Source of the DNA: Taibaiella helva
Lineage (GTDB): Bacteria > Bacteroidota > Bacteroidia > Chitinophagales > Chitinophagaceae
Length of the DNA stretch: 64,000 nucleotides
Direction: 5' to 3'
Assembly: GCF_003545695.1 (NCBI RefSeq)
Contig: NZ_QUZZ01000010.1
Coordinates: 62,001-126,000 of the forward strand
Below, in pieces: positions 3,516 to 7,730 of this stretch (its first letter is position 1; the number at the start of each line of letters is the position of its first letter). The notes beneath the pieces were generated by a model. That model had not been told where the DNA came from. It saw only the letters and a list, made by a program, of their open reading frames with translations, and did not search any database. The position numbers and the translations under genes are program-made.

Positions 3516-4865
3516 TTAGTATTCGGGATTAATGCCGGTATAATTCTGCGGTGTAATGGCCAGCAGCTCTTTTTTAACCTTGGCCGTTACATCCAGCGTC
3601 TCGATAAAGGCCTGCATGGTCTTTTTCGTAATGGCCTGCTGGCCGCGGGTCAGGTCTTTGAGTGCTTCGTAAGGTTTGGGGAATTGTTCGCGGCGAAGTA
3701 CGGTCTGGATGGCTTCGGCCACCACTGCCCAGTTGTTCTCAAGGTCCTCGTCCAGCTTAGCCTCATTGAGCACCAGTTTGCCCAGTCCTTTTTCAATAGA
3801 CCGGAGCGCCAGCAGGGAGTGGCCTACCGGTACACCGATATTGCGCAGTACCGTTGAGTCGGTAAGGTCGCGCTGCAGGCGGCTGACGGGCAGCTTCGCC
3901 GAAAGGTGCTCGTATAACGCATTGGCGAGGCCCAGGTTCCCTTCCGCATTTTCAAAGTCGATAGGATTGACCTTATGCGGCATAGCGCTGGAACCCACTT
4001 CGCCCTTTTTTGTCTTTTGCTTGAAATAGTCTGCCGACACATAAGTCCATATATCGCGGCAGAGGTCGACGAGGATCGTATTGATCCGCTTGAGCGCGTC
4101 AAAATGTGCCGCCAGGTTGTCGTAATGTTCGATCTGTGTGGTGAACTGCATCCTTTGCAGGCCCAGCGTTTCATTGACGAACCGGTTACCGAAGGTAATC
4201 CAGTCCTTTTTGCCGAAGGCTACATGATGTGCGTTGAAATTGCCGGTAGCGCCGCCGAATTTGGCTGCGTAGGGCACAAAGGAGAATAGCTCCACCTGGT
4301 TTTGCAGGCGTTCTACAAAGACCATAATCTCCTTACCGAGTGTTGTAGGAGAAGCAGCCTGGCCGTGGGTACGGGCCAGCATCGGGATCTTGCTCCAGCT
4401 CCTGGCCATCTTGTGCAGGGCAGAGATAATATTGAGCAGCGCGGGCATGTACACTTCTTCCAGCGCTTCTTTCCAGAGCAGCGGTATAGCAGTATTGTTG
4501 ACGTCCTGTGAAGTAAGGCCGAAGTGTACCCATTCGGCACAGGCCTCGCCACCCATCGCCAGCAGCTGTTCTTTGATGAAGTATTCGACGGCCTTAACGT
4601 CGTGGTTGGTTACCCTTTCCGTATCCTTTACCTGTTGCGCCTGCTCTTCCGTCAGGTTTTCATAGAGGGCGCGCAGCCGGGCAGGCTTTACTTTGGCGGG
4701 CAGCTTAAAAATACCGGCTTCAGCCAGCGCAAGAAAATACTCGACTTCCACGCGGATGCGGTACCGGATAAGACCGAATTCGGAGAAATAAGGCGCCAGC
4801 TCTTCCAGCTGCTTGCGGTAGCGGCCATCCACAGGGCTGATGGCGGAAAGGGGTGTCAAATTCAT
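3516..4865 (-). CDS. purB: Adenylosuccinate lyase
   Basis: 449 residues, the normal length for the short bacterial PurB. The fumarase/aspartase superfamily signature is clear (SSAMPHKVNPIDFENAEGN), as are the TSQDVNNTA and RTHGQAASPTTLGKE motifs that carry catalytic and binding residues. It cleaves SAICAR to AICAR and adenylosuccinate to AMP, both releasing fumarate, in cytoplasmic purine synthesis. It starts MNLTPLSAISPVDGRY, typical of the family. It is divergent from the DUF5686-type gene at 5199, and the shared region contains paired direct repeats. Confidence 0.97.
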   Translation of the reverse strand: MNLTPLSAISPVDGRYRKQLEELAPYFSEFGLIRYRIRVEVEYFLALAEAGIFKLPAKVKPARLRALYENLTEEQAQQVKDTERVTNHDVKAVEYFIKEQLLAMGGEACAEWVHFGLTSQDVNNTAIPLLWKEALEEVYMPALLNIISALHKMARSWSKIPMLARTHGQAASPTTLGKEIMVFVERLQNQVELFSFVPYAAKFGGATGNFNAHHVAFGKKDWITFGNRFVNETLGLQRMQFTTQIEHYDNLAAHFDALKRINTILVDLCRDIWTYVSADYFKQKTKKGEVGSSAMPHKVNPIDFENAEGNLGLANALYEHLSAKLPVSRLQRDLTDSTVLRNIGVPVGHSLLALRSIEKGLGKLVLNEAKLDEDLENNWAVVAEAIQTVLRREQFPKPYEALKDLTRGQQAITKKTMQAFIETLDVTAKVKKELLAITPQNYTGINPEY

Positions 4866-4950
4866 GGGTGCAAAAGTAAGTAATCCCGTTCAGAAGCCCC
4901 GCTGGTATGGGAAAATTCCACCGGGAAAGGCCGGGACGCGCTCTTGGTGC

Positions 4951-4988
4951 ATTTCTTAGACAAAAGACCTGATTTCTTCGACAAAAGA
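4951..4988. promoter_or_regulatory. Paired 17-bp direct repeats, 21 bp apart
   Basis: ATTTCTTAGACAAAAGA (4951-4967) and ATTTCTTCGACAAAAGA (4972-4988) differ at one base and start exactly 21 bp apart, which is two helical turns. They lie between divergent purB and the gene at 5199. Direct repeats with this period are the usual architecture of LytTR-type regulator sites (established for that family). Assignment to LytTR here is inference. Confidence 0.6.
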
Positions 4989-5000
4989 AAAGAAACAGCG

Positions 5001-5028
5001 TTGGTCGCCCCGCCGGCCGTATTGGTCG
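5001..5028. promoter_or_regulatory. Second 21-bp-spaced repeat pair
   Basis: TTGGTCG occurs at 5001-5007 and again at 5022-5028, also exactly 21 bp apart and 50 bp from the first pair. The repeated spacing in one intergenic region suggests the same kind of protein binds both pairs. The repeat is short, so chance is possible. Confidence 0.4.
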
Positions 5029-5198
5029 AATGGTATTGGAGGAAACCTTTTGCCGGGAGTATGTTTGCATAGGGAAATAAAAAAGGTTTATGCTGTAACC
5101 TTTGCCGCGCTGAACCGATTAAGCAACAAATTTTACCGAAATAGAGAATCTGCACTATCTTAACCCGCTGAATAAAAGGCCGAACAAACCTGCATACC

Positions 5199-7730
5199 AT
5201 GATTAAGAAACAAATGACCGCTACACTGCTCCTGCTCCTGACCGGCAATATCCTGTTTGCCGCAGTGATCAAAGGGCGCGTTACCGATGAAAACGGCGAA
5301 GGGCTGGCTTTCGCTACGGTACTGGAAAAAGGGACCACGAATGGTACATCGGCCAATGGCGATGGCTATTATACCCTGGAGCTCTCCGATGGCGCCCATA
5401 ATATTACGGCGCAGTACATCGGTTACCAGCCGCAGACCCGGCAGGTCAATACTGCATCGGTCAAGGAAGTCAACTTTAAGCTGAACCCGCAGACCCTTGA
5501 GGTAAGAGAAGTAACAGTAAAGGCCAATGGTGAAGACCCCGCCTATCCGATCATGCGTAAGGTGATTGAGAAAAGAAAGTATCACGCCGACCTGATCAGG
5601 ACCTTTGAAACAGATGTGTACCTGAAAGGCGTATTGCGCATGCGCAGTACACCCAAAAAGCTTTTGGGCATCAAGCTGAGCGAGGAAGACTACAAAGAGA
5701 TGAATGAAGGCGCCGGCCTCGATTCTGCCGGTAAAGGCGTGCTGTACCTGCTGGAGCAATATACACAGTACACGTATAAAGCACCATCAAAAGAATATAA
5801 CAGGGTCGTATCGATACGCCAGAGTGGCGATCCGCAGGGTGTGGGCTTTGCCACCATGCCGCCGATTACCAATATTTACGACAACAATGTCCCGATCATG
5901 CAAGGGCTGAACAAGCGGGGCTTTATATCTCCCGCCAACAGCAATGCCTTCCTGTATTATAAATATAAGTTCCTGGGCAGCTACTTGGACGGCGACCGCA
6001 TGATCAATAAGATACAGGTGATCCCCAAACGCAAGTTTGAACCGGTATTCAGCGGCTATGTATATGTCGTGGATGACGAATGGGTATTCCAGAGCGTCGA
6101 TCTCAGGCTAACTAAAGAGGCGCAGATGGACCTGCTCGATACCCTGAAGCTGGAGCAGACCTATATACCGATAGCCAAAGATCTGTGGATCATCCAGAGC
6201 CAGGTGATCTACCCGGTGCTGAGCCTGATGGGCTTTGAGGCAGCGGGTAATTTCGTGACCAGCTACAAGAACCAAAAGGTAAACCAGCCGGTCGACGAGC
6301 GACGCTTTGCCGGCAGGGTCATCTCTTCCTATGATACTGCAGCCAACGACCGTTCCATTGCTTATTGGGATACCATAAGGCCCATTCCCCTGGAAGCAGA
6401 CGAGGTCAGGGATTTCAAAGTGAAGGATAGTCTGTATACTTTCCAGAAAACAAAAGCCGATTCGCTGAATAAGATCCCCCATACCAACCTCGGTGTATCC
6501 GCTTTCCTGTATGGCGGCCCTTCCATTCGCCGGGGAAAGGATACCTGGACCATGCAGCCATTGATCAGCGCTATCAGCTATAATACCGTGGAAGGCCTTA
6601 ATGCCACATTGGACCTCGCCTGGACGCATCGCTTCAATAAGGACAAGACACTGACCACAGAGCTCCTTAACCGCTACGGCTTCAGCAATAAGCATTACAA
6701 CGCCCTGCTAAAGATGAACTATACTGTAAGTGATCCGAAATGGCGCGGGCGCTCCTGGCGTTTTCGCCTGGAAGGAGGGCAATACATCTACCAGCTCAAC
6801 AACGACAATCCCATTACGCCCTTCATCAACATGTCCTATACCCTGTTCGGCGGCGACAATTATATGAAGATTTATGAAAGCCGCCTGGGCAAGCTGAGCG
6901 TGTACCGCAACTGGGGCAATGGATTCAAAGCCTCGCTGGGCGCTTCCTATGAGCAAAGAATGCCGCTGGAAAATACTGCTGATTATACTTTCGGCGATAG
7001 TAAAAAGAAGAACCTCACGCCCAACCAGCCGGCTACTTTACCTTTGTTCGAAGAGCACAAGGCAGCTATTGTAACGGCATCAGTCAGTTACCAGCCTGGC
7101 TGGAGCTATATACAATATCCCAAGTATAAATCTCCCGTAGGCAGCAATGCGCCGGTGTTCACCGCCCGTTATACCAAAGGCATTCCTAACCTGTTCGACA
7201 GCAAAAGCGACTTCGATAAGTGGAGTGTCGAAATGGAGCACAGCCTCAACCTGCGCCTGCTGGGTACCGTTAATTACCGCCTGGTCGGCGGTGGCTTTTT
7301 CAACGACAACTATGTGGGTATCCCCGATATGAAACACCTGTTCGGCAACCAGACTTTCCTGGCTAATCCTTATCTCAACAGCTTCCAGCTGGCGCCCTAT
7401 TACCGGTTCAGCAATACCGCCGATCTTTACGGGCAGGGACACCTGGAATGGCACCTCAACGGCTGGCTCACCAACAAGATCCCCTTGTTCCGCCGGTTGA
7501 ACTGGCACCTGGTGGGCGGTTCCAATGTGCTGTATATCGACCAGGATAACTATTATGCAGAGGTCTTTGCCGGCCTGGAAAATATCGGGTTCAAGATGTT
7601 CCGCTTCGGTCGTGTAGACCTGGTGGCCGGCTATGAGAGCGGCCGTGGAAAACCTTCCGTTGGTGTCAGGATAGGCCTGGGCGAAGTGCTCTGGCAGATA
7701 TTGGGTATCAGCAACGGAAGAGGAGAATAA
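5199..7730 (+). CDS. DUF5686-type outer-membrane protein with carboxypeptidase-like regulatory domain
   Basis: 843 residues. The signal peptide (MIKKQMTATLLLLLTGNILFAA) is followed by a CarboxypepD_reg-like beta-sandwich at about 24-110 (IKGRVTDENGEGLAFATVLEKGTTNGTSANG). The long remainder resembles DUF5686: an N-terminal soluble part, then many amphipathic beta-strands ending at residue 843 (GVRIGLGEVLWQIL), predicted to form an outer-membrane barrel. This architecture is common in Bacteroidota next to TonB-linked systems, but no substrate is known. It is a single gene followed by a hairpin terminator, preceded by the paired repeats at 4951-5028 that probably control it or purB. Confidence 0.85.
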   Translation: MIKKQMTATLLLLLTGNILFAAVIKGRVTDENGEGLAFATVLEKGTTNGTSANGDGYYTLELSDGAHNITAQYIGYQPQTRQVNTASVKEVNFKLNPQTLEVREVTVKANGEDPAYPIMRKVIEKRKYHADLIRTFETDVYLKGVLRMRSTPKKLLGIKLSEEDYKEMNEGAGLDSAGKGVLYLLEQYTQYTYKAPSKEYNRVVSIRQSGDPQGVGFATMPPITNIYDNNVPIMQGLNKRGFISPANSNAFLYYKYKFLGSYLDGDRMINKIQVIPKRKFEPVFSGYVYVVDDEWVFQSVDLRLTKEAQMDLLDTLKLEQTYIPIAKDLWIIQSQVIYPVLSLMGFEAAGNFVTSYKNQKVNQPVDERRFAGRVISSYDTAANDRSIAYWDTIRPIPLEADEVRDFKVKDSLYTFQKTKADSLNKIPHTNLGVSAFLYGGPSIRRGKDTWTMQPLISAISYNTVEGLNATLDLAWTHRFNKDKTLTTELLNRYGFSNKHYNALLKMNYTVSDPKWRGRSWRFRLEGGQYIYQLNNDNPITPFINMSYTLFGGDNYMKIYESRLGKLSVYRNWGNGFKASLGASYEQRMPLENTADYTFGDSKKKNLTPNQPATLPLFEEHKAAIVTASVSYQPGWSYIQYPKYKSPVGSNAPVFTARYTKGIPNLFDSKSDFDKWSVEMEHSLNLRLLGTVNYRLVGGGFFNDNYVGIPDMKHLFGNQTFLANPYLNSFQLAPYYRFSNTADLYGQGHLEWHLNGWLTNKIPLFRRLNWHLVGGSNVLYIDQDNYYAEVFAGLENIGFKMFRFGRVDLVAGYESGRGKPSVGVRIGLGEVLWQILGISNGRGE

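Follow-up and report, generated by a model that had tools for sequence, protein, structure and literature searches.

The purB-DUF5686 intergenic region

The window analysed here, a stretch of 64,000 nucleotides of Taibaiella helva DNA, contains a group of short direct repeats between two divergent genes, purB and a gene of the DUF5686 family, and these flanking genes were confirmed as the earlier note had named them. The features of the region are the following:

3516-4865, minus strand: purB, adenylosuccinate lyase (Lyase_1 + ASL_C), the divergent neighbour of the array
4871-4878, minus strand: -7 box of purB, TACTTTTG, 5 bp before the ATG; the distal pair is 77 nt away
4956-4964, minus strand: distal outer half-site, plus-strand letters TTAGACAAA, minus-strand reading TTTGTCTAA
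4977-4985, minus strand: distal inner half-site, plus-strand letters TTCGACAAA, minus-strand reading TTTGTCGAA, 21 bp from the outer one
4986-5000, no strand: gap of 15 bp between the opposed pairs, around the centre at 4993
5001-5009, plus strand: proximal outer half-site, TTGGTCGCC
5022-5030, plus strand: proximal inner half-site, TTGGTCGAA, ending 29 nt before the -7 box
5060-5067, plus strand: -7 promoter box TATGTTTG (TAnnTTTG) facing DUF5686, with a predicted transcription start near 5072
5199-7730, plus strand: CarbopepD_reg_2-DUF5686 protein of 843 aa, outer-membrane, the probable target gene

Two direct repeats, both with the 21-bp spacing and at the positions described earlier, are found here: a 17-bp one, ATTTCTTAGACAAAAGA (4951-4967) and ATTTCTTCGACAAAAGA (4972-4988), identical at 16/17 positions, and a second one, TTGGTCG at 5001-5007 and 5022-5028, identical at 7/7. 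A 16/17 direct repeat was reached in 0/1000 dinucleotide-preserving shuffles of 4851-5128 (278 bases; distances of 17-149), the best shuffled repeat being 15/17, in 3 shuffles. The earlier note treated the two pairs separately; their positions and spacing stand, but TTMGACAAA is the TTGGTCG motif in opposite orientation, and we therefore deal with one motif in four copies, two on the minus strand (4956-4985) reading TTTGTCKAA and two on the plus strand (5001-5030) reading TTGGTCGNN, with the symmetry centre of the four half-sites at 4993. Each pair has a 9-12-9 bp geometry with a 12-bp spacer, and the distal one fits TTNGACNAA-N12-TTNGACNAA without mismatches. Taken as a 16-mer, the first repeat has no second genomic copy at 0-1 mismatches and stays at control level at up to 2 mismatches (27 vs 31 matches); the evidential weight is in the pair geometry, rather than in the long identity of the first repeat.

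TAnnTTTG is the -7 box of Bacteroidota, and in a flavobacterium it occupies -12 to -5 (PMC9723704). Counted from the predicted box in this way, the proximal pair of the DUF5686 promoter would span about -71 to -42, with its centre near -57. AgrA direct-repeat pairs are centred near -60 (PMC4227749). According to our analysis, the DUF5686 promoters of all four Taibaiella genomes (G000, which is the window genome, G001, G002 and G003) carry the 21-bp pair, then exactly 29 nt, then TAnnTTTG, while single half-sites vary by one or two bases. The conservation that the earlier note asked about was thus found, and this conserved spacing, facing DUF5686, lends support to its suggestion that the array may control that gene. 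The inverted distal pair is present at DUF5686 in the window (gap 15) and in G002 (gap 14), and absent from G001 and G003. Since purB has its own -7 box at the start codon, and none 27-31 nt beyond the distal pair, it is probably not a target.

We also observed that in G002 (L002:1667-1963, G002:C23) about 200 extra bases lie between purB and the array as compared with the window, the distance to DUF5686 being kept and the distance to purB not. With its box only 5 bp from the ATG, purB mRNA is probably nearly leaderless (window 4863-4878), and the TACTTTTG box also precedes purB in G001-G003. No paper under the name DUF5686 was found in the literature searched.

Recurrence of the motif and its targets

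A composite pattern, consisting of the pair, 29 nt and TAnnTTTG with up to 3 mismatches, gave 11, 10, 11 and 11 matches in the four Taibaiella genomes and 0, 1, 3 and 0 for its reversed control. The pattern had been derived from the DUF5686 arrays, which account for six of these 43 matches, leaving 37 vs 4 for the control, and the matches are not independent, as orthologs recur and one array can match on both strands. The further pairs that the earlier note proposed to look for do exist, at roughly ten similar promoters per Taibaiella genome vs 0-3 in the control. In 15 other genomes the pattern was at or below control (29 matches vs 45 reversed). Searched by itself and allowing up to 2 mismatches, the TTGGTCG pair had 43 matches vs 138 for the reversed pattern, and is informative only once the geometry is added. 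With at most 1 mismatch, the TTNGACNAA pair was likewise not above control overall (8, 5, 8, 12 vs 5, 6, 10, 8); the perfect TTNGACNAA pairs number 13, all of them in promoters of the target set, although the one at G002:C21:103066, belonging to an S9 peptidase ortholog, was identified only after the match. Some composite matches resemble chance or unrelated sites, for instance G000:C11:44241, and C28:513453 has no clear gene downstream.

The genes behind these promoters include, apart from DUF5686, an ABC ATPase with a permease (ABC3), a DrrA-like ABC exporter whose -7 box has one mismatch, small secreted proteins, often in tandem, and histidine-kinase/LytTR operons, to which G003 adds an OMP_b-brl_3/TonB-type protein and an M16 peptidase. 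The TTGGTCG pair scan also led to an S9 peptidase, which has one pair with 28 nt to the box in G000 and G002.

Opposed four-site arrays

For the layout of the sites we picked 21 TTNGTC-type promoters from the TTGGTCG-pair and composite matches, excluding unclear matches and the LytTR-operon variants with other motifs. An inverted pair scoring at least 12/14 lies within 110 nt upstream in 12 of the 21, always with a gap of 13-15 or 24-25, whereas the remaining 9 score at most 9/14. The background is 61 inverted pairs per 685,672 positions on both strands of Taibaiella DNA, the arrays and overlaps included, or 47 when counted as distinct. Together with G002 ABC3, which was found by pattern, 13 arrays were tabulated with the period fixed at 21. 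GTC is invariant in 52/52 of their half-sites, partly by selection, and the distal half-sites are nearer to TTTGTCGAA than the proximal ones. TAnnTTTG stands at exactly 29 nt in 11/13 arrays; the other two, ABC3 of G000 and G002, have no exact box there and a one-mismatch box at 29 and 28 nt. Two strict four-site patterns, one for each of the gaps 13 and 15, were run over 147 family genomes including 3 Taibaiella, G001 being outside this sample, and matched in Taibaiella only (2 genomes for gap 13, 3 for gap 15) with zero control matches; these patterns miss arrays within the genus, such as G002 SP, and are therefore not fully sensitive.

What is new relative to the earlier note is that the pairs form a single opposed four-site array, at a defined distance from the promoter and with targets that recur. 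We would tentatively suggest, at somewhat short of an even chance, that the quartet serves as a one-promoter LytTR complex, in which two dimers face each other across a gap of 13-15 or 24-25 bp and the consensus-strength distal pair loads the weaker proximal one by protein contact or DNA bending. If the quartet is cooperative, the SP31 promoter, with a gap of 24-25 in G000 and G002 and of 13 in G001, would present a natural change of about one helical turn.

Link to LytTR regulators

G000 has 27 LytTR domain matches. The proximity of a LytTR gene, which the earlier note wished to see checked, holds only in part: none was found within the window and the sole one on its contig is situated about 26 kb ahead of the array, but several of the similar promoters stand on LytTR operons. 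At least 13 of the 43 Taibaiella composite matches are located up to 3.5 kb upstream of a LytTR gene (at least 3/11, 4/10, 4/11 and 2/11 in G000, G001, G002 and G003), and for G000 the 3/11 compare with about 0.2 expected by area, by our own arithmetic. A TTKGTCG pair at 12/14 or better occurs in only 4 of the 27 LytTR upstream regions.

In a motif-free search of the same 27 regions, for 9-mers repeated at periods 16-28 and placed 27-31 nt before TAnnTTTG, a 21-bp period accounted for 15 matches (3 loci in 5 registers each), a 20-bp one for 3 (1 locus) and a 23-bp one for 1, with zero at the other periods of that range; as only 3 loci appear at 21 bp, 24 of the 27 regions gave nothing at that period by this rule. 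The three loci carry other half-sites, TTTAYCGAA, CGTCGGAAA and TTNGTATAA, as would be expected if each LytTR protein had its own variant of one geometry. LytTR operons with these half-sites, repeated every 21 bp and at a similar distance from TAnnTTTG, were noticed at L213:3500-6356 (G000:C28:406074), L140, L124, L228 and L231, a LiaF-like/kinase/LytTR operon among them. Such varied half-sites within one geometry suggest a LytTR specificity code that may be readable.

Published LytTR sites are 9-bp repeats separated by 11-13 bp, in most cases 12, and located immediately upstream of the promoter, and their length, spacing and promoter position are conserved while sequence conservation is low (PMC6193735). 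The half-site consensus found here, TTNGTCNAA, departs from the ACCNCTTAN-like consensus reported in that source. Taken together, the published 9-12-9 geometry, the conservation and the recurrence on LytTR operons speak for the LytTR-type arrangement that the earlier note had proposed.

RR31 as a candidate regulator

The candidate that we favour, RR31 (G000:C31:138877-139653), joins a receiver to a LytTR domain (PF00072, 71.3 bits; PF04397, 76.5 bits) and is encoded on a different contig from the window. Each of the other Taibaiella genomes has a single close ortholog of it (82, 93 and 76% identity), the best other full-length match being at 54% among the matches listed; this conservation agrees approximately with the restriction of the quartet to the genus. 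Its operon, two histidine kinases followed by RR31, exists in each of the four genomes. Upstream of it there is everywhere a TTYGTCGA pair, with a degenerate third half-site 21 bp further on and a TAnnTTTG located 48-49 nt past the pair; the full quartet is there in 3/4 genomes, the distal pair missing in G003. A PDB sequence search with RR31 had only receiver-domain matches among 60 of the 127 obtained.

Proposed regulation and alternative explanations

The motif, its geometry, conservation, recurrence and link to LytTR operons are seen in the DNA itself; from them we infer that a protein would bind here and would activate rather than repress, and we propose its identity and the cooperation of the pairs on the same grounds. 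We suggest, with a probability of about 0.83 for the reading as a whole, that the array at 4956-5030 is probably a LytTR upstream activating sequence for DUF5686, with four half-sites of the consensus TTNGTCNAA, most likely used by RR31 and with the distal pair as an anchor. A phosphorylated LytTR response regulator would bind each 21-bp direct-repeat pair as a dimer, and the proximal pair would let it contact RNA polymerase at the TATGTTTG promoter. The inverted distal pair, near consensus, would probably anchor the complex and, with the DNA bent, assist the loading of the weaker proximal pair. RR31, standing behind two histidine kinases whose operon bears the same motif, appears the most likely regulator, and its regulon would span ABC exporters, small secreted proteins, peptidases and DUF5686.

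The regulator could instead be another LytTR paralog, or several of them sharing sites, such as the kinase-LytTR pairs on C30 or C5, whose operons have upstream the pairs TTGGTCAGT/TTGGTCTAA (C30) and TTTGTCGGT/TTGGTCGGC (C5), close to TTGGTCGCC/TTGGTCGAA of the window. With such near-identical motifs on these LytTR operons RR31 is not proven as the regulator; nevertheless, among the LytTR operons looked at, the others having been compared unsystematically, the opposed quartet occurs on that of RR31 only (3/4 genomes), and none of the 13 perfect TTNGACNAA pairs is at the C30 or C5 operon, which leaves a paralog a realistic but clearly less likely candidate. It would be less plausible still that a regulator of a different family, for example of the AraC or LuxR type, uses these direct repeats two turns apart. 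Direct repeats are common among activators and the window itself encodes two LuxR-type response regulators (132-860 and 1277-1930), but the motif recurs on LytTR operons, LytTR being the operon class looked at, and its 9-12-9 geometry is the LytTR geometry (PMC6193735); we regard such a regulator as improbable.

The inverted distal pair, with purB divergent from DUF5686, might be taken for a separate promoter element of purB, as in agr P2/P3, giving no help to DUF5686. The SP31/kinase-RR31 locus would agree with this, since in its three arrays the distal pair faces a second promoter, with an outward box at 48-49 nt, a degenerate third half-site and a divergent kinase operon behind. Outside these three arrays, however, there is no box at 48-49 nt, and TAnnTTTG was found 27-31 nt beyond the distal pair in 0/13; the other outward boxes are that of purB in the window and those at 17 and 52 nt in G003 ABC3. 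With no outward box at the usual places, the distal pair is thus left without its own promoter in 10/13 arrays. The next gene on the distal side, moreover, is co-oriented with the target, not divergent, in 4/4 ABC3 and 3/4 SP arrays, and a separate purB element seems to us unlikely. A chance or neutral repeat, a hairpin or a terminator would be the least probable of all: short arms could pair weakly, but the shuffles failed to reproduce the repeat, the spacing is conserved and the motif recurrent, both flanking genes run away from the array, and no T-run follows it. We keep to the LytTR activating sequence as the preferred reading.

Comparison with known systems and significance

Promoters of the Streptococcus mutans HdrRM/BrsRM type share with the array two 9-bp direct repeats, a mostly 12-bp spacer, the promoter-adjacent position and positive autoregulation of the LytTR operon (PMC6193735). 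They differ from it in the half-site, which here is not ACCNCTTAN-like, in the Bacteroidota -7 box and in the second, inverted pair, and RR31 is a receiver-LytTR protein with histidine kinases. Closer by phylum are the LRS-like operons of Bacteroides thetaiotaomicron and B. ovatus, LytTR operons with repeats upstream of a TATCTTTG box, but there the repeats are of 11 bp with an 11-bp spacer and another sequence, the regulators have transmembrane segments, and a single pair is listed (PMC6193735). The agr P2/P3 region of Staphylococcus aureus with AgrA resembles the array in having pairs centred near -60, two of them in one intergenic region with divergent promoters (PMC4227749); unlike here, each agr pair has its own promoter, and this one-promoter-per-pair layout is not found in the window, where the sole outward box belongs to purB.

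Direct-repeat LytTR sites are already known and the opposed quartet layout is new. If true, the one-promoter complex tentatively suggested above would be a cooperative LytTR module of a kind not found in the literature passages available to us. These held no LytTR binding motif for Chitinophagaceae, with only the two Bacteroides entries, and the literature searched had no paper on LytTR with Chitinophaga, nor on Taibaiella with a response regulator. With the half-site defined, its distance to the -7 box of the phylum nearly constant and the targets few, a LytTR regulon becomes open to direct testing, and the DUF5686 family would be linked with a two-component system, along with exporters, peptidases and small secreted proteins.

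Two further observations concern the genes themselves. The ABC3 gene of G003 (L220:3955-7662), under a four-site array, encodes an ABC-2 permease of 1235 aa that carries a peptidase M1 domain at its C terminus. Behind other four-site arrays (L209:2826-3535, L207:3195-3560, L221:2180-3247, L223:2490-3204) we noticed a family of proteins of about 100 aa, often in tandem, with secretion-signal-like N termini, the one best match being a sub-threshold DUF3244 (E 0.0047).
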